64,000 bases of DNA from positions 1-64,000 of the forward strand of contig CANMML010000022.1 in NCBI GenBank assembly GCA_947499005.1, in the 5' to 3' direction. How positions within the stretch are numbered: position 1 is the stretch's first letter; every line of letters starts with the position of its first letter. The notes beneath the pieces were generated by a model. The model worked only from the letters and a program-made list of their open reading frames with translations. It was not told where the DNA came from and searched no databases. The translations under genes and the position numbers were made by a program. Positions 33,588 to 46,345 of the stretch are shown piece by piece. Source of the DNA: an uncultured Aquimarina sp. (lineage in GTDB: Bacteria > Bacteroidota > Bacteroidia > Flavobacteriales > Flavobacteriaceae).

Positions 33588-36500
33588 TTATAACCTAGTG
33601 ATCATATATCCACTAAACCCACTTTCAGATTGTACACTCCAAGATGTATCTGCACTAGAATATACAACACAAGTTACTACCTCATCTTTTGCTAATTTCA
33701 TTACACCAGAAACATTTAATGTATGGAAATCTGTTCCTGAATCCCCTTCAGCAATGGCATGCATTCCATTATCTAAACTCAATTTGCCTTTAATTCCAAT
33801 TAGTAAACGCATAAAACCAGAGTTAATACCATCAAAACGTACTTGAGCTGAGAAATAATATAATCCATTTTCAGGCGCTGTAAACTCACCTGTGGTTTCA
33901 TTAAAATGATTTCCGTTATCATGTAAGTTGGTCAAGGTAGCATTACTTGTAGTCCATGTAGGTACATCTAAAAAGCTTCCTGCTCCAGATAGTACTAAAG
34001 TATTCGTTAAATCTGCAGAGAAACTAGGTAAGCTAGTTACTTTTAAGGCGTTTGTTGTAACAGAATTTGTAGTAACATCAGAAGTCCATTGCGAATCTCC
34101 CGCCCCATCACTAATTAAAATTTGCCCTGAAGTTCCTCCTGTTGGTAATTCAATCTCATTGGTTGGGTCATTATCAGCATCATTCACATTATCATTTACC
34201 CATGCATAAGCTCCATTACCATTAGTACGTAAAATTTGTCCATCAGTTCCTCCAACAGGTAATTCGATTTCATTTGTTGGGCTATCATCTGCAATTACCT
34301 CATCAGCATCAAGCCATTGGACTCCTGCTGCACTAACTCCTAATAATTGTCCATTCGTTCCTCCTGCAGGTAAATTTGAAGGGGCATTTGTCCATGATAC
34401 ATTCCCACTACCATCCGTAGACATTACTTGGTTTACTGTTCCGTCTTGTGCAGGCAAAGTATAAGATCGCCCTGCAGCAATATTATCCGCATCAATCGTT
34501 AATCTACCATTTAAGGTCGTATTTCCATTTTTACGCATTACCAATGCATTACTTCTAGTACCGTCACTGGTACCATTTCCTATAACAAACAACGCATCTG
34601 TAGCAACATAGCTATTATGTGTTCCTAAAATTCCTTCACTAAACAACCCTAATGTATGCTGACCATAACTAGTAGCTTGTGAACCTGCTCCTAAACCAAC
34701 AGCATAAATACCAGAAACACTATTACCGGATCCTAATGCTATTGAAGCAAAACGAGAAGCTAGATTGTTATGTCCTACTGCAAATGCATTTTCTCCACCC
34801 GCATTGTTATGACTACCAAATGCAGTCGCTGCTATACCAGAAACTAAAGACCCTCGTCCCATTGCTACAGAATAGTCTCCGATAGCACCAGAGTTCCAAT
34901 CGCTTTCAACACCATCACTGGCAGTGGCATCTCCTGCTCTAAAAGCTGCTTTACTTTTATCAAAGAACATACGTACTTCATCTCCTGAATTCACAACACC
35001 GTCATCATCTAATCGTATACTCCCAAACACAAAATCATCTGTTGCTATATTTCCTGAAGCATTACTTGTTACATTCGAGATTGTAGAAAAAGCTCCTGAA
35101 TTAGCTGCAGTTATCCAACTTACATTCCCCGAACCATCCGTAGACATTATCTGGTTTGCAGTTCCATCTTGAGCAGGAAGTGTGTATGAAGCACCTACTC
35201 CTTTATTATCCCCATCAATAGTTAGAGTTCCATTTAATTGTGTATTTCCGTTACGAAGCATAACTAACGCATTACTTCTTTCACTAAAATCTCCATTACC
35301 TATAATAAAATAAGGATCTGTAGCTGAAAGTCCACCTGTATTTGGTACTGTGGCTTCATTAAAAAGTCCTAAAACCATTTGACCTCTACGATTGGCAATC
35401 AAATCGTACCCCATAGCAAACGTTAACCCTACACTAAGGTTGTTGCTAGCACCAAAAGCAAAGCCAAATACATTATTTGATGGTGCGTTAAAAATATTCG
35501 ATTCTCCAAAAGCGTATGACGAGCTCATATTGTTGAATCTATTTGAGGATCCAAGAGCTACAGAATTACTTGCTGTAGATTCAAGAGTATTGAATCCTCC
35601 GATAGAAATACTACCCGTTCCTTTCGCAATACCTCCTCTACCCATAGCAATTGAAGCAAAACCTATATTAGTATCATCCCATTCTTTACCTGCATCAGAA
35701 CCTCCCTCTGCATTATCATCTAGGAAACCTACTCGAAAAGCAGCATTACTTTTATCAAAAAACAAACGCCCATTATCGCTAAAGTTATTAGGAATATTAT
35801 CCAATTGTGAACTTCCTATTACGAAGTCTTCATTAGCAAAATCTCCTGAGCCATTTGAAATCACTTGACTATTTATAGAGAATACAGGATTTGCCACAGA
35901 AGGCTTGTCTACCCATTGTAGGGTTCCATTACCATCTGTTTCTATAATTTGATTGGCACTTCCGTCTTGGGCTGGTAACGTATAAGCATCACCAGAGCCA
36001 TTGACATTATCTCCATCAATGGTTAATGTACCATTCAAAGTTGTATTTCCGCTTTTAAGCATTACTAAGGCGTCACTAGGATTATCATTTGAAATATCTC
36101 CATTACCAATTACTAATAAACGATCTTCAGGATAAATAAGATTAGCACTATTAGACTGACTACCTGAATTACGAGTATTGAAATTCCCTAAAGTAATTTG
36201 CCCTCTAGTTTCGGCCGTCAAATGCTCTCCATGTGCAAATGCATAGTTACCCGTAACCGTATTTTGATCTCCAAAAGCCACCCCATTAGAAGCTCTTACC
36301 CTAAGTAAAGAACCTGCTGCAAATCCATTGAATCCATCAGTCACAATATTTTGATATCCAAATGCAGCTGAACCAATTCCTAAGTTTTCTTCATCCCATG
36401 AGCTATCATCTGATGTACCTGATCGAAATGCTCCTTTACTTTTATCAAAGAAAAATCTTCGGTCATCATCATTTGTAGTATTATCATTAGCTAATTGACT

Positions 36501-36977
36501 ACTCCCAAATACAAAATCGTCTGTAGCTATATCCCCTATTGAATTACTAGTTACATTACTAACCGTACTAAAAGACTTATCTCCCGAAGTAGCTGCATAA
36601 TTCGCATAAGGCACCGATTGAAGTTTTGAAGTTCCGATGACCATATAATTAGTACCTCCTGTAATATCTATACTTACTTCCAACCAGTGATTTCTGATAG
36701 ACCAATTCACACTAGTTATAACATTATTCCCTGTAGTATTACCATTTCCAATAGATAATGAAATAACTCCTTGTGCATTTGAAGTTACAGTATGCGTCTC
36801 TAAGTAAACGGATTCTCCATCCGCTGCACTTTCTCTGATCTTAATTTCAACACCAATAGCTTGACTTGTTATAGGCTCTCCATTGGTATCTCTAACTACT
36901 GCTTGATAATTGAAGCTTTGAGAAAAACCAACGATAACACAGAAAAAAGCCAATAGGTTAGGTATTATTTTTTTCAT
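33588..36977 (-). CDS. Repetitive secreted fibre-like protein with three head-like modules and a C1q/TNF-like C-terminus
   Basis: Signal peptide; three homologous modules (FDKSKGAFRSG..AFGYQN..LTIDGDN..YTLPAQDG); C-terminal GEFTAPENGLYYFSAQVRFDG..GFSGYMITRL. Confidence 0.8.
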   Translation of the reverse strand: MKKIIPNLLAFFCVIVGFSQSFNYQAVVRDTNGEPITSQAIGVEIKIRESAADGESVYLETHTVTSNAQGVISLSIGNGNTTGNNVITSVNWSIRNHWLEVSIDITGGTNYMVIGTSKLQSVPYANYAATSGDKSFSTVSNVTSNSIGDIATDDFVFGSSQLANDNTTNDDDRRFFFDKSKGAFRSGTSDDSSWDEENLGIGSAAFGYQNIVTDGFNGFAAGSLLRVRASNGVAFGDQNTVTGNYAFAHGEHLTAETRGQITLGNFNTRNSGSQSNSANLIYPEDRLLVIGNGDISNDNPSDALVMLKSGNTTLNGTLTIDGDNVNGSGDAYTLPAQDGSANQIIETDGNGTLQWVDKPSVANPVFSINSQVISNGSGDFANEDFVIGSSQLDNIPNNFSDNGRLFFDKSNAAFRVGFLDDNAEGGSDAGKEWDDTNIGFASIAMGRGGIAKGTGSISIGGFNTLESTASNSVALGSSNRFNNMSSSYAFGESNIFNAPSNNVFGFAFGASNNLSVGLTFAMGYDLIANRRGQMVLGLFNEATVPNTGGLSATDPYFIIGNGDFSERSNALVMLRNGNTQLNGTLTIDGDNKGVGASYTLPAQDGTANQIMSTDGSGNVSWITAANSGAFSTISNVTSNASGNIATDDFVFGSIRLDDDGVVNSGDEVRMFFDKSKAAFRAGDATASDGVESDWNSGAIGDYSVAMGRGSLVSGIAATAFGSHNNAGGENAFAVGHNNLASRFASIALGSGNSVSGIYAVGLGAGSQATSYGQHTLGLFSEGILGTHNSYVATDALFVIGNGTSDGTRSNALVMRKNGNTTLNGRLTIDADNIAAGRSYTLPAQDGTVNQVMSTDGSGNVSWTNAPSNLPAGGTNGQLLGVSAAGVQWLDADEVIADDSPTNEIELPVGGTDGQILRTNGNGAYAWVNDNVNDADNDPTNEIELPTGGTSGQILISDGAGDSQWTSDVTTNSVTTNALKVTSLPSFSADLTNTLVLSGAGSFLDVPTWTTSNATLTNLHDNGNHFNETTGEFTAPENGLYYFSAQVRFDGINSGFMRLLIGIKGKLSLDNGMHAIAEGDSGTDFHTLNVSGVMKLAKDEVVTCVVYSSADTSWSVQSESGFSGYMITRL

Positions 36978-37038
36978 GGGACTAGTATTAAAATTTATGC
37001 TTATACTTTTAATACAGGTAAACTCAAAAGTACCCTAT
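36978..37038 (-). promoter_or_regulatory. Conserved leader element (copy 1)
   Basis: Minus strand ATAGGGTACTTTTGAGTTTACCTGTATTAAAAGTATAAGCATAAATTTTAATACTAGTCCC; 9-bp stem GTATTAAAA/TTTTAATAC; shared with 46291-46345. Confidence 0.6.
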
Positions 37039-37044
37039 AAAAAA

Positions 37045-37074
37045 ATCCACCTTTTTAAAAATTAAAAGGTGGAT
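37045..37074 (-). terminator. Intrinsic terminator of the 3058-aa gene
   Basis: ATCCACCTTTT..AAAAGGTGGAT. Confidence 0.8.
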
Positions 37075-37100
37075 CATTACAATTCTTATCATTTTTAAAA

Positions 37101-40100
37101 TCAATCTTTCAAGAACTTTCTAAGGATACTATTGGAACTATTACCGTAGTTTACTTCTATCAAATAAGTTCCCGAAGCAAAATTGCTTACATCCAAAGCG
37201 GTATTCTCAATATAATTTGATGCAACAATTAAAGGCTTTCCATTTATATCATAAATCGTCACTACTGCATTTGGTGAAATATTTTTTAAATAAATAACAT
37301 CAACTGTTGGATTAGGGTATGCAATCCATGCAGCTATATTTTGGACTGTTTCTATTGAAATTACTTGTGTTTCTCTAGTTACAGACAAAGCCCTGTTATA
37401 ATTAGTACCTCCTTGCTGTTTTGCTGTAATACGAACCTTACCTGAACCTACTATGATTGCTTTACCTTCCTCAATACGAACAATGCTTTCATCGGAACTT
37501 GAAAACGTAATAGGCAATCCTGAATTCGTATTAGCATTCAGATCCCATGCTCCAATACGAGCATCTATTGTTATAGGTAAATTAAAAACAAGTTCTTGAT
37601 CTGACTTTAGAATTTCAAAATCTCCTTGAACATACGCTATTTCATAATTAGAGTTATTAAGTGTTCCTTGTTGAATAGCATAAAGTCCTACTTCTTCTCC
37701 AACGGATCTTTCTAAATTTCCTGATAAAGTATCTCCAGTTACTAGATTATCTGAAATGATTTCATAGGTTAGCAACGGATCGGCATTCCCAAAAGTTTTA
37801 CTAAGTCCTAAAGTGGGAGATACTGTAATCATCCTTGGGTGTACAACTAATGTTTGTTGCACAGGAATAGCCGAATTTTGATTTCCATTTCCTGATTGAA
37901 AAGCCGTAATTATTGCTGTTCCTGCTCCTCGTATCAAAATGGTATTCCCACTTACTTGTGCAATATTCTCATCACTACTACTAAAATTCACTGCTAAACC
38001 ATTAGAAGAAATTGCACTTATATTAAAATTAGTATCACCATAAACTACATCATTTAAACTATTGAAAGTAATCGTTTGATTTGCTCGAATAATTTCGAAT
38101 GCATCTCCAACAAAAATAATATCGTAATTAGTATTCGCTAAGCTTCCTTGGTTGATTGGATATAAACCTACATCCTCTCCTGCTGTTCTTGCCAAACTTC
38201 CATTCAACACATCATTACCAACTAAACTCCCCGAACTAATTGAATAAATTAACGTAGGATCTACATCTCCAAATACTTTGCTTTGATCTGCATTGGCAGT
38301 TACCGTAATCGCTCTTGCAGCTACATTCAATACTTGTGACACATCAATCGCAGCATTGTAATTACTATTTCCTATTTGACTTGCCGTAATCGTTGTACTT
38401 CCAACTCCGACAATCGTTACAGTACTTCCTGAAACTGTCGCCACTGAAGTATCAGAACTCTCATAACTAACTTCTAAACCTGATGAAGCAGTTCCATTTA
38501 AATTGAAATCTAGATCTCCATAAATAACATCTGCCAAAGGATTAAACGTGATCGTTTGATCTGATGGTGTGATCTCAAAAGAAGTACCTATAAAAGTAAT
38601 ATCATAGTTAACATTTGCTAAACTTCCTTGATGGATTGGATACATCCCAACATCTTCTCCTAATGTTCTTTCTAAAGCTCCAGTAAACACATCGCTACCC
38701 ACTAAATTTCCTGTAGTAATCGAATATTCTAACGTAGGCTCTGTTTCTCCAAATACTTTGCCTTGACCTGTATCTGCTGTTACACTAATCGCTCTAGCAG
38801 TTACATTCAATACTTGTGGAATATCAATCGCGCCATTGTAATTACTATCTCCGATTTGACTTGCCGTAATCGTAGTACTTCCAATACCTATAATCGTTAC
38901 TGTGTTTCCTGAAACTGTAGCTACTGAAGGGTCTGAGCTACTATATGAAATCGCTAAACCTGAATCGGAAGTTGCATTCAAATTAAAATCTAAATCGCCA
39001 TAAATAACATCTGCCAAAGGATTAAACGTGATCGTTTGATCTGATGGTGCAATTTCAAAAGAAGTGTCAATAAAAGTAATGTCATAATTAGCATTTGCTA
39101 AACTTCCTTGATGGATTGGATAAAAACCTACATCTTCTCCTGATGTTCTTTCTAAACTTCCATTCAATACATCACTCCCCACTAAATTTCCTGAAGTAAT
39201 CGAATATTCTAATGTGGGCTCTGTTTCTCCAAATACTTTGCCTTGACCTGTATCTGCTGTTACACTAATCGCTCTTGGATTAACTATTAATGTTTGTGGA
39301 ATAGCAATCGCAGCATTGTAATTAAGATTCCCTAATTGGCTGGCTGTAATTGTAGTACTTCCAACTCCGACAATCGTTAAAGTACTTCCTGAAACTGTCG
39401 CTACTGAAGTATCGGAACTCTTATAACTAACTTCTAACCCAGATGAAGCTGTTCCATTTAAATTGAAATCTGCATCGCCATAAATAACATCTGACAAACC
39501 ACTAAACGTAATCGTTTGATCTGCTGGTATAATTTCAAAAGAAGTACCTACATAAGTGATATCATAATTAGTATTTGCTAAACTTCCTTGATGGATTAGG
39601 TACATTCCAACAGCTTCTCCTGCTGTTCTTGCTAAACTTCCGTTTAAGACATCACTACCCACTAAATTTCCTGTAGTGATAGAATATCCTAGCACTGGGT
39701 CTGCTCCTCCAAATACTTTACTTTGACCTGCATCTGCTGTTATACTAATGGCTCTTGGATTAACTGTCAAGGTTTGTGGAATAGTAATCGCAGTATTGTA
39801 ATTGCTATTTCCTAATTGACTGGCTGTAATCGTTGTGCTTCCAACTCCGACAATCGTTACAGTACTTCCTGAAACTGTCGCTACTGATGTATCGGAACTC
39901 TCATAACTAACTTCTAAACTTGATGAAGCTGTTCCATTTAAATTGAAATCTACATCGCCATAAATAACATCTGACAAACCATTAAACGTAATCGTTTGAT
40001 CTGATGGAGTAATTTCAAAAGAAGCTCCAATAAAAGTGATATCATAATTAGTATTCGCTAATGTTCCTTGATTGATTGGATATAAACCTACATCTTCACC

Positions 40101-43100
40101 AGCTGTTCTTGCCAAACTTCCATTCAATACATCACTACCAACTAAACTACCTGAAGTAATCGAATAGGTCAATGTAGACTCTGCATCTCCAAAGACTTTA
40201 TTTTGACCTGAATCTGTTGTCACTGTAATCGCTCTAGTAGTTACATTCAATACTTGCGGGACATCGATCGCGGCATTGTAATTACTATTCCCTAATTGAC
40301 TTGCCGTAATCGTTGTGCTTCCAACTCCTACAATCATTACTGTATTTCCTGATACCGTTGCCACTGAAGTATCTGAACTTGTATAACTAACTGACAATCC
40401 AGAAGTACTGGTAGCTCGAAGCTCGAAGCTCGAAGCCCCGTAAATAACATCACTCAAACTATTGAAAGTAATCGTTTGATCAGCTTTAGTTATTTCAAAA
40501 GAAACCCCAATAAAAGTGATATCATAATTTGAATTTGCTAAACTTCCTTGGTTGATTGGATACAAACCTACATCCTCTCCTGCTGTTCTTGACAAACTTC
40601 CATTCAACACATCACTACCAACTAAACTCCCCGAAGTGATCGAATAAGCCAACGTAGGATCTGCATCTCCATAGACTTTGCTTTGACCTGCATTGGTAGT
40701 TACTGCGATTGCTTTTGGATTTACAGTTAATATTTGATTAACCGGACTTGCAGCAAAGTAATTATTATTCCCCGATTGACTTGCAATAATAGTAGTACTT
40801 CCAACTCCAACAATGGTTACTATATTTCCTAACACCGTTGCTACTGAAGGATTCGAACTCGTATAGCTTACCATTAAACTAGCGTCTGAAGTCGCACTTA
40901 AATTAAAATCTGCATCTCCATAAGTGACATCATCTAAAGTATTAAAAGTAATCAATTGCACAGCAGGTGTAATTTCAAATAAATCTGTTACGAAAGTAAT
41001 ATCATAATTGGGGCTATTTAAAGTTCCTTGATTAATCGGGTAAAATCCAACATCTTCTCCTGCCATTCTAGCTAGGTTTCCATTTAAAGTATCACTACCT
41101 ATTAAACTACCGGAAGTAATTACATAAGTTAGTGTTGGTTCTGTATGTCCAAATACTTTTCCTTGTCCAAAGTTCGCCGAAACCGTGATGCCTTTAGCAT
41201 TTACGATTAATGTTTGAACAGATCTTCCAGCAGGGTTGAAATTTCCATTTCCTCTTTGTATTGCTGAAATAGTTGTTTGACCAGCTCCTACAATAGTTAC
41301 CGTATTCCCTAATATGGTTGCTACTGAAGTATCTGAACTAGAATAACTAACCTCTAAACCAGAGGAAGCTGTTGCATTCAAATTAAAGTCAGCATCACCG
41401 TAAGTGACATCGCTTAGTATAGGAAAATCAATCGTTTGATCGGCTTCAATAATTGTAAAACTCTCCGAAATAATATTGATATCGTAATTAGTATTGTCTA
41501 AAGTTCCTAATAAAATCGGGTAAGTTCCGGTATCCTCCCCTGACACTCTTGTTAGACTTCCAGAAAGTACGTCTCCATTAATTAACCTAGTACCTACTAT
41601 ATCATAGGTAAATACAGGATCTGATGTACCAAATACCTTTTCTTGATCTGCATCTACACTAACTATAAGTCTTCTTTGAAGTACTTTTAATTCCTGCAAA
41701 ACGGTAATCGCTGCATTGTAATTCCCATTTCCTACCTGACTTGCTGTAATCGTTGTTGTTCCTGCTCCTACGATAGTTATTCTATTTCCAGAAACAGTCG
41801 CCACTGAAGGATCGGAACTACTATATGAAACCGTCAAACCTGAATCGGAAGTACCATTTAAGTTGAACTCTGCATCTCCATAAGTAACATCACTTAAACT
41901 ATCAAAAGTAATAGTTTGGTCTGCTTTAATAATTTCAAAATCAGCTCCTATAAAAGTGATATCGTAATTTGAATTTGCTAAACTTCCTTGATCAATTGGA
42001 TACAAGCCTACATCTTCACCTATTGTTCTTTCTAAACTACCATTCAATACATCACTACCTACTAGACTTCCTAAAGTAATCGAATAATCTAGTACTGGAT
42101 CAGCCCCACTTCCAAATACTTTTCCTTGACTTGAATCTGCTGTTACGGTTATCTCTTTAGCAGTTACATTCAATACCTGTGGAACATCAATAGCTTCATT
42201 ATAATTCCCATTTCCTGTTTGACTTGCCGTAATCGTAGTACTTCCAACCCCTACAATGGTTACTGTATTTCCAGAAACTGTCGCTACTAAAGGATCTAAA
42301 CTTGTATATAAAATCGCTAAACCTGAATCGGAAGTTCCATTCAAGTCAAAGTCTATATCTCCATAAATGACTTCACTTAGACTATTGAAAGTGATCACTT
42401 GATCGGCTTTCAATATTTTAAAATTATCCTCTTCAAATGTGATATCGTAATTAGTATTCACTAAGCTTCCTTGAGTGATTGGATACAAGCCAACATCTTC
42501 ACCTACAGTTCTTGCTAAAACTCCAGTGAACACATCACTATTTATCAAGCTTCCTGTAGTAATTGTATAGGTAAAAACAGGTTCCGCATTTCCAAATACT
42601 TTTGATTGTCCAGCATCTGCGGTTATCGTAATTTCTCTTCCGTTAACTTTTAAATCTTGAAGAACCTCTATAGCTGGTTTAAAATCATCGTTTCCTACTT
42701 GTGAGGCTGTGATCGTCGTCATTCCTGCTCCTACAATGGTTACCGTATTTCCTGAAATGGTAGCTACAGAGGTATCAGAACTAGAATAACTCACAGGTAA
42801 GCCTGATGTGCTGACAGCTCGAAGCTCGAAGCTTGAAGCCCCATATGTAACATCGGTTAAAGCACCAAAAGTAATCGTCTGTTCTGCTTGTCCGAATTCA
42901 AAAGCACCAATGTCAATGGTTTTAGTACTGTCGTTATCTCCATCGATAATACGCTCTTTTCCTCCTAAACCTTTGGCTGCTGTGTTATCGGAATTATTTC
43001 CTTTATCAATTAATAGGGAACTTCCTTGTAAAGTATAATCATTATTGGCCACATCTTTAAAAAGGACATCTGTAATCGTTGTTCCATCAATATTTCCTGT

Positions 43101-46100
43101 TCCTGATGGGTTTTCTCCTTTTAGGTAACTATAGGTTGAAACTAGGCTTCCTGTTCCTGTGGTATTAAAATTGGTGGTATGACTTCCGTCTACAACACTA
43201 TTGATTAGGGTGATAGTGGCATCTTTTGACCCTAGAATCCCGTTACTAGAAGTAGCTGTATTATTGACTAGGGTACAGTTTATAAAACTAGCTGTCCCTT
43301 CTTCTATAAAGAAAGCATTGGTTTGTTGACCTTCGTTACCATAAAACAAACAGTTAATGTATTTATTATTATTTCCTGAAGTATGGTAAATGGCTGCTCC
43401 TTCTTGTCCTAAATTGTTTCTAAAAATACAATTAGCAAATGTATTGTTATTTGCATTTCTTAAATATGTTCCTCCTCCTCGAGTATCTTTCAAATCATCG
43501 ATATCATTATCAAATTCAGCATTCGCTTCTTCAATAATAAATCCATCAATAACTACATTATCTGTACGTTCTAAATTCAATAGAGTAAATGTATTTCCAG
43601 AAATGACATTTGGAATTCCAATATCTCCATTAAGGATCGTAGCATTTGTTTTCCTATCTCTTTCATTCAATGTGGTTTCTGTTCCTGCAAAACCTCCATA
43701 TATTTTAATATTATCAGGAATAGAAAAGGTCTCGTATCGATTAACCCCTGGCACATAAGTTCCCCCTTGCACCCATATCTCTTCAATTGAGGCACATGTT
43801 TTGGCTAGCTTTAGCGCACTATTTAAAGTTGTTGCTGCTCCCCAACTAAGACCACTATTCGTTTCATTTCCTGAAGGACTTACATATAAAATAGTAGATG
43901 TTAACGTACTACAATCGAAAGGTTCGAAAGCCCACACTTCTTCTTGAAAAATACCGTCATCCGCATTAAAAAACAGCCTATTCCCAACTACTACCATATC
44001 ATCAAGGGAAGAGCCACTAGATCCAGGTCTCATATCTGCGACCAAAGAAGTTCCTTCAGGTGTTCCATCACTTTCCCATAACTCTGTACCAAATACCCCA
44101 TCATCGGCTCTTAAATACATTCGATTTTGAAACACCGTAATCTCCCTAACACTAGAGCCACTAGTACCTTCTCTAATTTCTACCGCTAATTGTGTTCCTG
44201 ATTCGGTACCATCACTTTCCCATAACTCATATCCATGTACCCCATCATTCGCTCCAAAATAAAGTTTGTTTTGGTATACTTCTAACCATTGTACCTGGGA
44301 ACCAGAAGTTCCTGGAAGTATATCTTTGAATAATTGTGTTCCTGCTTCTGTACCATCTGAAACCCATAATTCATTTCCGTGTGTTGATGTCCATGCATTG
44401 AAGTACAACTTATTATCGTAAACTTCGAAATATCTTGGAGAAGAGCCATTCGTCCCTATATTAACATCTTTTACTAAATGGGTTCCAGCTTCCGTACCAT
44501 CACTCTCCCAGAGTTCAACACCATGAATTCCATCATTCGCTCCGAAATAAAGTTTATTTTTAAATACTGCTATTTGAGATATAAAACCATGATCTGTTCC
44601 CAGATTAATATCTTTAACCAATTGTGTTCCTGATTCCGTACCATCACTTACCCACAACTCGGTACCATGTACAGGTTCGTATGCTGTAAAATAGAGTTTA
44701 TCGTTCCATACTACTGCATTATAAGGACCAGAACCATCGCTCCCTGGGTTTATATCTTTAACCAGTTTCGTCCCTGCTTCAGTACCATCTGTTTCCCATA
44801 GCTCTCTACCATAAACTCCCTCATTTCCTACAAAATAGAGTTTACCACTCATTACCCCTAGCATTCTTCCTGCTCCTCCTGCACTTCCTGGATTATTATC
44901 ATTCACCATGTAAGTACCTATTTCCGTACCATCGCTTCGCCATAATTCTGTCCCGTGCATATTATCTCTTGCTTGGAAGTAAGCTATTCCATCATAATTT
45001 ATAAAGTAACGAGCATTGGAAGAAGTGGTGCTTTTATTTATTCTTAAAAACTGACTTGTTCCTATCTCAGTACCGTCACTCACCCATAATTCATCTCTCC
45101 CTTCTGGGCTAGAAGCTCGAAAAAAAAGCCTATTACCAAAAGCATAAAACTCTCTAATATTAGATCCTCCTGTTCCTGGGTATATATCTTTCAATAATTG
45201 TGTTCCAAGTTCAGTTCCATCACTTATCCATAGCTCATTCCCAATCCCACTTCCATCATTCGCACTGAAGTATAATTTATTTTGAAATGCATAAAGATTA
45301 AAAGGGCCAGATCCGTTAGAACCTGGATAGATATCTTTAACTAAATTAGTACCAGAAGGAGTTCCATCACTTTTCCAAAGCTCCCATCCGTATACAGGAT
45401 GTAGCACCCTAAAATAGAGGGTATCATTCAAAACCGTTAATTGAGAAACAAAAGAATATCCAGAAGGAGTTACATCCACCACCAATTTAGTACCTGCTTC
45501 TGTTCCATCACTTTCCCATAACTCTGTATTATTCGTCGAATCTTGAGCCGCGAAGTACAATTTATTATTAAACACTGTTAATTCTGAAGGGCTACTCCCT
45601 CTATTCATTTCAGGAAAGATATCTGCTACTAATTTAGTCCCTGTTTCCGTTCCATCACTTTCCCATAATTCTGTTCCATGAATCCCATCGTCAGCAGAAA
45701 AATAAAGTTTGTTATTAAACGCTACAAGAGAAAAAGCATAAGAACTTCCTGATCCTGATCGGATATCTTTCACCAGTCTTGTTCCTGCTACAGTTCCATC
45801 ACTTTCCCATAACTCTACTCCATGAATACCATCATCTGCTGCAAAGTATAGCTTATTATTTAGCACCGTAAGATGAGAAACCCGAGAAGAATTTACCCCA
45901 GGGTTGATGTCTGTAATTCGTCGAGTTCCAGCAGGAGTACCATCCGTTACCCATAACTCGGTACCAAAGGCGTCATCGCCTGCACTAAAATATAACTGAT
46001 CTCCCAGTACAGTTAAATAGCTCGGGGAAGAACTGAGTCTCCCTGATTCAATATCTACGAATAAATGCGTCCCATTAGGTGTTCCATCACTTACCCATAT

Positions 46101-46277
46101 TTCATTTCCATGGGTATCATCATCCGCTCTAAAGTATAAACGCCCTTTGAATTCGACGAAGTCTCCAACATTAGAACCACCACTAGCTCCTGTATTAATA
46201 TCCTTGACTAAGTAGGCTTGTTGGGCCAATAAGTAGGTAACGCTTAAAAATAATAGTAGGGTAAATATCTTCTTCAT
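37101..46277 (-). CDS. Giant modular T9SS-type secreted protein: ELWxxDGT repeats, parallel-beta-helix-like region, MBG/Ig-like repeats, C-terminal sorting domain
   Basis: Signal peptide; 15 ELWxxDGTxxGT repeats; choice-of-anchor-Q-like region; 11 KVFG MBG-type repeats alternating with 12 QTITF Ig-like repeats; C-terminal AYPNPTVDVIYLKN..LIEVNYGNSSNSILRKFLKD. Confidence 0.92.
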   Translation of the reverse strand: MKKIFTLLLFLSVTYLLAQQAYLVKDINTGASGGSNVGDFVEFKGRLYFRADDDTHGNEIWVSDGTPNGTHLFVDIESGRLSSSPSYLTVLGDQLYFSAGDDAFGTELWVTDGTPAGTRRITDINPGVNSSRVSHLTVLNNKLYFAADDGIHGVELWESDGTVAGTRLVKDIRSGSGSSYAFSLVAFNNKLYFSADDGIHGTELWESDGTETGTKLVADIFPEMNRGSSPSELTVFNNKLYFAAQDSTNNTELWESDGTEAGTKLVVDVTPSGYSFVSQLTVLNDTLYFRVLHPVYGWELWKSDGTPSGTNLVKDIYPGSNGSGPFNLYAFQNKLYFSANDGSGIGNELWISDGTELGTQLLKDIYPGTGGSNIREFYAFGNRLFFRASSPEGRDELWVSDGTEIGTSQFLRINKSTTSSNARYFINYDGIAYFQARDNMHGTELWRSDGTEIGTYMVNDNNPGSAGGAGRMLGVMSGKLYFVGNEGVYGRELWETDGTEAGTKLVKDINPGSDGSGPYNAVVWNDKLYFTAYEPVHGTELWVSDGTESGTQLVKDINLGTDHGFISQIAVFKNKLYFGANDGIHGVELWESDGTEAGTHLVKDVNIGTNGSSPRYFEVYDNKLYFNAWTSTHGNELWVSDGTEAGTQLFKDILPGTSGSQVQWLEVYQNKLYFGANDGVHGYELWESDGTESGTQLAVEIREGTSGSSVREITVFQNRMYLRADDGVFGTELWESDGTPEGTSLVADMRPGSSGSSLDDMVVVGNRLFFNADDGIFQEEVWAFEPFDCSTLTSTILYVSPSGNETNSGLSWGAATTLNSALKLAKTCASIEEIWVQGGTYVPGVNRYETFSIPDNIKIYGGFAGTETTLNERDRKTNATILNGDIGIPNVISGNTFTLLNLERTDNVVIDGFIIEEANAEFDNDIDDLKDTRGGGTYLRNANNNTFANCIFRNNLGQEGAAIYHTSGNNNKYINCLFYGNEGQQTNAFFIEEGTASFINCTLVNNTATSSNGILGSKDATITLINSVVDGSHTTNFNTTGTGSLVSTYSYLKGENPSGTGNIDGTTITDVLFKDVANNDYTLQGSSLLIDKGNNSDNTAAKGLGGKERIIDGDNDSTKTIDIGAFEFGQAEQTITFGALTDVTYGASSFELRAVSTSGLPVSYSSSDTSVATISGNTVTIVGAGMTTITASQVGNDDFKPAIEVLQDLKVNGREITITADAGQSKVFGNAEPVFTYTITTGSLINSDVFTGVLARTVGEDVGLYPITQGSLVNTNYDITFEEDNFKILKADQVITFNSLSEVIYGDIDFDLNGTSDSGLAILYTSLDPLVATVSGNTVTIVGVGSTTITASQTGNGNYNEAIDVPQVLNVTAKEITVTADSSQGKVFGSGADPVLDYSITLGSLVGSDVLNGSLERTIGEDVGLYPIDQGSLANSNYDITFIGADFEIIKADQTITFDSLSDVTYGDAEFNLNGTSDSGLTVSYSSSDPSVATVSGNRITIVGAGTTTITASQVGNGNYNAAITVLQELKVLQRRLIVSVDADQEKVFGTSDPVFTYDIVGTRLINGDVLSGSLTRVSGEDTGTYPILLGTLDNTNYDINIISESFTIIEADQTIDFPILSDVTYGDADFNLNATASSGLEVSYSSSDTSVATILGNTVTIVGAGQTTISAIQRGNGNFNPAGRSVQTLIVNAKGITVSANFGQGKVFGHTEPTLTYVITSGSLIGSDTLNGNLARMAGEDVGFYPINQGTLNSPNYDITFVTDLFEITPAVQLITFNTLDDVTYGDADFNLSATSDASLMVSYTSSNPSVATVLGNIVTIVGVGSTTIIASQSGNNNYFAASPVNQILTVNPKAIAVTTNAGQSKVYGDADPTLAYSITSGSLVGSDVLNGSLSRTAGEDVGLYPINQGSLANSNYDITFIGVSFEITKADQTITFNSLSDVIYGASSFELRATSTSGLSVSYTSSDTSVATVSGNTVMIVGVGSTTITASQLGNSNYNAAIDVPQVLNVTTRAITVTTDSGQNKVFGDAESTLTYSITSGSLVGSDVLNGSLARTAGEDVGLYPINQGTLANTNYDITFIGASFEITPSDQTITFNGLSDVIYGDVDFNLNGTASSSLEVSYESSDTSVATVSGSTVTIVGVGSTTITASQLGNSNYNTAITIPQTLTVNPRAISITADAGQSKVFGGADPVLGYSITTGNLVGSDVLNGSLARTAGEAVGMYLIHQGSLANTNYDITYVGTSFEIIPADQTITFSGLSDVIYGDADFNLNGTASSGLEVSYKSSDTSVATVSGSTLTIVGVGSTTITASQLGNLNYNAAIAIPQTLIVNPRAISVTADTGQGKVFGETEPTLEYSITSGNLVGSDVLNGSLERTSGEDVGFYPIHQGSLANANYDITFIDTSFEIAPSDQTITFNPLADVIYGDLDFNLNATSDSGLAISYSSSDPSVATVSGNTVTIIGIGSTTITASQIGDSNYNGAIDIPQVLNVTARAISVTADTGQGKVFGETEPTLEYSITTGNLVGSDVFTGALERTLGEDVGMYPIHQGSLANVNYDITFIGTSFEITPSDQTITFNPLADVIYGDLDFNLNGTASSGLEVSYESSDTSVATVSGSTVTIVGVGSTTITASQIGNSNYNAAIDVSQVLNVAARAITVTANADQSKVFGDVDPTLIYSISSGSLVGNDVLNGSLARTAGEDVGLYPINQGSLANTNYDIIFVGDAFEIIRANQTITFNSLNDVVYGDTNFNISAISSNGLAVNFSSSDENIAQVSGNTILIRGAGTAIITAFQSGNGNQNSAIPVQQTLVVHPRMITVSPTLGLSKTFGNADPLLTYEIISDNLVTGDTLSGNLERSVGEEVGLYAIQQGTLNNSNYEIAYVQGDFEILKSDQELVFNLPITIDARIGAWDLNANTNSGLPITFSSSDESIVRIEEGKAIIVGSGKVRITAKQQGGTNYNRALSVTRETQVISIETVQNIAAWIAYPNPTVDVIYLKNISPNAVVTIYDINGKPLIVASNYIENTALDVSNFASGTYLIEVNYGNSSNSILRKFLKD
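40414..40434. repeat. Perfect 7-bp tandem repeat, 3 copies, inside CDS
   Basis: GCTCGAA x3 followed by GCC. Confidence 0.9.
42817..42837. repeat. 7-bp tandem repeat, 3 copies, inside CDS
   Basis: GCTCGAA GCTCGAA GCTTGAA followed by GCC. Confidence 0.9.
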
Positions 46278-46290
46278 ATCTACAAGATTT

Positions 46291-46345
46291 GGGATTAGTA
46301 TTAGGTTGTTTATATCTAATACAGGTAGACTTGCTGTTACCCTAT
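46291..46345 (-). promoter_or_regulatory. Conserved leader element (copy 2)
   Basis: Minus strand ATAGGGTAACAGCAAGTCTACCTGTATTAGATATAAACAACCTAATACTAATCCC; 7-bp stem GTATTAG/CTAATAC. Confidence 0.6.

Follow-up and report, generated by a model that had tools for sequence, protein, structure and literature searches.

Two large genes preceded by the same element

The window, which is the whole stretch of 64,000 nucleotides analysed here from an uncultured Aquimarina sp., contains two genes for large surface proteins of 1129 and 3058 amino acids (Table 1). Each is preceded on the minus strand by one copy of the sequence ATAGGGTA-N10-TACCTGTATTA, the 3' end of which lies 32 nt from the start codon of the 1129-aa gene and 39 nt from that of the 3058-aa gene. 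An earlier note on this DNA had described this shared leader core with its constant spacing, and the sequences are found exactly where it placed them; it was also right in taking them for one regulatory element common to two unrelated surface-protein genes. A 27-nt gapped pattern with at most three mismatches has 2 matches in the window, where 0.13 are expected by chance. When the window is scanned with a weight matrix trained on other genomes only, with the own genome excluded, the two copies take ranks 1 and 2, copy 2 with 37.8 bits and copy 1 with 16.0 bits, while the next match in the window reaches 2.9 bits and the best of 10 shuffled windows 11.2 bits. Copy 1 has no A-tract upstream, and from this follows its lower matrix score (16 versus 38 bits). 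The terminator-like hairpin of the 3058-aa gene fits with the start of a new transcription unit at copy 1.

Table 1. Coordinates of the features in the window and of the sigma gene
Feature	Position	Strand	Remarks
1129-aa secreted protein, predicted target	33588..36977	-	C1q and YadA-head domains, FNYQAVVRD N-terminus
TAATACTAGTCCC, 3' arm of stem 2, copy 1	36978..36990	-	outside the conserved element
Copy 1	37038-37010	-	ATAGGGTACTTTTGAGTTTACCTGTATTA, then AAAGTATAAGCATAAATTTTAATACTAGTCCC; ATG at 36977
Copy 1, putative -10 box CTGTATTA	37010..37017	-	TGTA invariant in 72 copies; fixed 13-nt spacer to -35
Copy 1, putative -35 box TAGGGTA	37031..37037	-	TAGGGT invariant in 72 copies
Terminator-like hairpin of the 3058-aa gene	37044..37075	-	directly upstream of copy 1
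3058-aa protein, predicted target	37101..46277	-	MBG repeats, type IX secretion sorting tail
TAATACTAATCCC, 3' arm of stem 2, copy 2	46291..46303	-	outside the conserved element; ATG at 46277
Copy 2	46345-46317	-	ATAGGGTAACAGCAAGTCTACCTGTATTA
Copy 2, putative -10 box CTGTATTA	46317..46324	-	window sequence and 72-copy logo
Copy 2, putative -35 box TAGGGTA	46338..46344	-	window sequence and 72-copy logo
173-aa ECF sigma gene	G000:C20, L121:11921-12442		on a contig other than the window's

A weak resemblance to NF053851 (28.2 bits, cut-off 60), the mosaic adhesive trimer family chimeric fiber protein, is seen in the N-terminus of the 1129-aa protein; the name is used for the prey-recognition fibres of Bdellovibrio (PMC10769870).

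Architecture of the element

The logo of 72 homologous copies is asymmetric and consists of an A-rich stretch, TAGGGTA, a spacer of 13 nt and CTGTAtTA. TAGGGT, in the position of a -35 box, and TGTA, in that of a -10 box, are invariant, and the preferences in the spacer are weak. When TAGGGT[AG] and TGT are held fixed and the length of the gap between them is varied inside the sigma loci described below, a single gap is populated: in Aquimarina it has 48 matches and each other gap 0-4, and in other genera the same gap has 47 and each other gap 0-2. The element is thus made of two boxes at a fixed spacing, and it stands upstream of genes and is directed toward them. What the 72 copies conserve does not include the stem-2 complement or the TARTCCC tail of the window copies. 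TAATACTARTCCC, tried as a separate element, occurs exactly 3 times in the genome and 20 times with at most one mismatch versus 13 for its reversed control, which is little above chance. The exact core pattern is also present in 88 stretches of viral contigs.

At loci of paralogous sigma factors (L211-L234), TAGGGT[AG]...TGT has 27 matches with a gap of 15 and 15 with a gap of 18, which suggests a second ECF promoter class that shares the -35 box and has a longer spacer. Paralogous ECF sigma factors thus seem to use the same -35 sequence, so that cross-recognition is possible.

Copies in the own genome and the genes behind them

Pattern searches of the own genome with at most two mismatches return 7 copies, 2 in the window, 4 on contig C20 and 1 on C8, and none for the reversed control pattern. 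All 7 lie on the same strand as the gene that follows, with 21-47 nt between the end of the -10 box and the ATG. The gene is in one case that of a FecR-like protein and in six cases that of a secreted protein with a signal-peptide-like N-terminus. A type IX secretion tail is matched in four of these six proteins (351, 1021, 375 and 3058 aa) and has no match in the other two (289 and 1129 aa); over all genera, the type IX sorting domain is recognized in 24 of 37 target C-termini.

Relatives of the window genes are preceded by the motif as well. For the 1129-aa protein this holds in L128 and in L124, where 776 aa align at 60% identity; in L200, L202 and L210 the motif is present in clade-specific versions. 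For the 3058-aa protein it holds in L184, L190 and L191, three Aquimarina genomes in which the relatives, 55-64% identical over the compared parts, are encoded near the sigma-FecR-receptor operon. Both window genes are therefore predicted, from this pattern of conservation, to be members of the sigma regulon.

The sigma-FecR-receptor operon

The C20 copy at L121:12442 is situated between the 173-aa ECF sigma gene and the FecR-like gene, after which comes a gene for an 888-aa TonB-receptor-like protein. The sigma factor has both region 2 (Sigma70_r2, 1e-7) and region 4 (Sigma70_r4_2, 2.4e-15) and scores 126.3 against the cut-off of 126.4 for TIGR02985 Sig70_bacteroi1, and its neighbour is a FecR-family regulator (FecR 2e-18, FecR_C 2.7e-7). 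In the own genome's receptor the plug domain is matched and Pfam STN is not called, unlike in most of the aligned orthologues: STN is matched in 21 of 32 orthologous receptor N-termini (best 2e-9), from which follows that all three components of Fec-type signalling are encoded in the operon. The own sigma factor is more divergent than the others, with 58-64% identity to the other orthologues and a long branch in the tree.

Divergent from the sigma gene and adjoining it in the own genome is a gene for a 150-aa LuxR/GerE-domain protein (L121:11211-11663, minus strand). On G000:C4, two near-identical minus-strand sites, TAGGGTATTTACAAGTTCA[AT][TC]TGTTTTA at 158666-158693 and 164202-164229, flank another ECF sigma gene (C4:162958-163449, minus strand); they probably serve a paralogous system as promoters whose -10 box is TGTTTTA.

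Co-occurrence and co-variation with the sigma factor

Among 69 Aquimarina genomes (GTDB), 18 have an orthologue of the sigma factor, set apart by a gap in score (223.9 versus 206.8 bits). At least two copies of the motif occur in 17 of the 18 sigma-bearing genomes and in 0 of the 51 others (Fisher P = 3e-15). The motif is present at the ECF sigma/anti-sigma locus in all 18, at a distance of 0-10 nt past the sigma stop codon on the FecR side. A single match is found in 15 of the 51 genomes without the orthologue; by inspection, some of these lie in coding sequence, and some before other genes or after a paralogous sigma gene. In six Aquimarina genomes (L005, L007, L014, L018, L019, L027) there is a single related site, TAGGGTA...CTGTTTTA, which precedes a gene starting MLKRIVEKYRLE or similar, and these genomes carry a 51-54% identical sigma factor elsewhere.

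Further relatives come from Tenacibaculum, Flavivirga, Winogradskyella, Lacinutrix, Bizionia, Psychroserpens, Kordia and other genera, where the orthologous sigma factors have the element in the same place with a different -10 box. This box reads CTGTATTA in Aquimarina and C[TG]GTACA[AG] in Tenacibaculum; in the other genera it is mostly NTGTCTWA. When the corresponding types GTAT, GTAC and GTC are placed on a tree of 41 sigma factors, 5 changes are needed versus 18.0 in shuffles. Promoter and sigma factor thus vary together across species, but the clustering partly reflects species relatedness; the argument draws its force from the combination with spacing, position and co-occurrence. The genes near the sigma factors of other genera mostly carry the -10 type that matches their sigma factor. 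The kinds of gene are the same as in Aquimarina: some encode FNYQAVVRD fibre proteins that resemble the 1129-aa protein, others large repeat proteins, and a further one, divergent from the sigma gene, codes for a small secreted protein. Genome-wide searches at one mismatch or less with the -10 boxes exchanged between clades give counts at background level.

Promoter, RNA or operator

The element is most probably, at roughly 93%, a promoter of an ECF sigma-factor regulon, composed of an A-tract, a -35 box TAGGGTA, a 13-nt spacer and a -10 box CTGTATTA. Comparative sequence analysis supports this reading strongly: it establishes the element with its spacing and position, shows that it occurs and varies together with the sigma factor, and reveals the gene content around it.

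The earlier note had placed another reading in its headline, namely that the leaders of mRNAs for large surface proteins contain a riboswitch-like regulatory RNA with two conserved hairpins. Both stems can indeed be drawn in both window copies, where stem 2 is extended differently in each, but the pairing is lost when the 72 copies are compared. Stem 1 is complete in 14 of them, and one of its pairs sets an invariant G against a near-random base, so that there is no compensation; what the homologues display is conserved sequence without pairing covariation. Nor is the pairing of stem 2 kept while its sequence changes, as had been proposed: a stem of at least 6 bp forms in 3 of 72 copies, which is the rate in shuffled downstream sequence, and two of these three are the window copies themselves. 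In the relatives of the 3058-aa gene in L184, L190 and L191, TAGGGT...CTGTA is kept and the TAATAC arm is absent. Dinucleotide-shuffled sequences fold just as well as the two leaders (z = 0.04 and -0.67), and the comparison with Rfam that the note had recommended, flavo-1 and the riboswitch classes included, gives no family match to them. Under the promoter model, furthermore, neither stem would have its 5' arm transcribed, since these arms overlap or precede the putative -10 box. The arms that look paired stem from the -10 box plus chance, and the two-hairpin leader is almost certainly a DNA start signal rather than an RNA structure, which leaves a regulatory RNA very improbable. A shared operator or promoter was among the alternatives that the note itself had offered.

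Which kind of DNA signal is concerned can be judged from the same copies. A housekeeping promoter read by sigma-A through a TAnnTTTG -7 box had been considered on account of TACTTTTG inside copy 1. TAnnTTTG occurs in just this one of the 72 copies, within the variable spacer, and is absent from copy 2; the match is therefore coincidental, and such a promoter is the least credible of the readings. Slightly less improbable than either, though still most unlikely, is an operator for an ordinary transcription factor that is linked to the sigma operon by chance, with the true promoter elsewhere. A dimeric factor could bind a pair of conserved blocks separated by about two helical turns, and the LuxR/GerE-type gene adjoining the sigma gene could be taken as a candidate. 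Against this, the element is non-palindromic, always points toward the gene at 21-47 nt before the ATG in the own genome, has a -10-like half that varies with the sigma clade, and is surrounded in the named loci by genes for sigma factor, FecR and receptor.

A model for the regulon

To describe how the promoter may work, consider RNA polymerase with the 173-aa ECF sigma factor, which we infer to be the reader of the element. The holoenzyme would bind the -35 box TAGGGTA and the -10 box CTGTATTA, and transcription would start a few bases downstream of the latter, giving short leaders. The sigma factor is presumably restrained by the FecR-like protein encoded beside it. When the STN-domain TonB receptor of the same operon senses an outside ligand, the signal would pass through FecR, and the sigma factor would be freed or activated, as the domains suggest by likeness to Fec-type cell-surface signalling. 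The active sigma factor would then switch on FecR, and probably also the receptor behind it, as feedback, and would turn on the secreted surface proteins, including both large window genes. In marine flavobacteria it thus appears to switch on surface proteins that are exported by the type IX secretion system (T9SS) or are fibre-like, together with its own regulator.

Within 25 nt before the ATG, a tract rich in C (CCC, frequently CCCCT) is present in 28 of 38 surface-protein targets, in 0 of 19 FecR genes and in 33 of 170 background ORFs, several of these being targets that were encountered again in another locus. The survey covered the window (36978-36990 and 46291-46303) and the target leaders in L121-L140 and L172-L193; the TARTCCC of the window may be a version of this tract. 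More tentatively, and with the odds rather against it, one may imagine a Fec-type system common to the family in marine Flavobacteriaceae, serving arrays of T9SS adhesins and trimeric fibre-like proteins instead of nutrient uptake, with a second, post-transcriptional layer of control at the C-rich tract before the target start codons.

Relation to known systems

Bacteroidota possess many ECF sigma factors with a FecR partner, and the promoters and regulons of these sigma factors are largely unassigned. The present case supplies a concrete promoter consensus together with sigma clades that have matching -10 types, and a predicted surface-protein regulon in Aquimarina, Tenacibaculum and relatives, by which sigma-promoter specificity in the phylum becomes directly testable; a plausible but wrong RNA annotation is corrected at the same time. 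The element would belong to a known type, the ECF promoter, and in the open-access papers searched neither this consensus nor a paper naming the sigma factor or the motif was found. The prediction of ECF-controlled promoters has been called a challenging task (PMC3878776).

With the Fec-type systems (FecA-FecR-FecI of E. coli, FpvA/FpvR/FpvI-PvdS of Pseudomonas) the locus shares the grouping of a sigma factor, a FecR-family regulator and an STN-like TonB receptor, as well as a promoter whose -35 and -10 boxes are of the ECF type. In E. coli, fecIR is transcribed with sigma-70, and FecI has the fecA promoter as its one target (PMC9249621). Here, by contrast, the target promoter sits between the sigma and FecR genes, and the predicted regulon comprises genes for large surface proteins that are secreted, spread over several loci, instead of one iron-uptake operon. 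The ECF sigma factors and FecR-type anti-sigma factors beside SusC-like glycan-uptake genes in Bacteroides, in the same phylum, follow the same three-part logic; they serve glycan uptake, whereas the present system has a definable promoter and surface proteins as its targets. SigP-PorXY of Porphyromonas gingivalis is likewise a case of an ECF sigma factor controlling type IX secretion genes (PMC4800418), but SigP acts together with PorXY, a two-component system, and the motif proposed for it is a different one; the SigP paper makes no mention of FecR or an anti-sigma factor. SM6 of Flavobacterium psychrophilum, which is of ECF type with a CGT box in the -10 region (PMC9723704), has in common with the present system the flavobacterial ECF promoter class and the link both to type IX secretion and to a single sigma/anti-sigma pair. 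The products of the SM6 genes are components of the secretion machinery, while the genes predicted here lie behind the boxes TAGGGTA and CTGTATTA and code for exported surface proteins.
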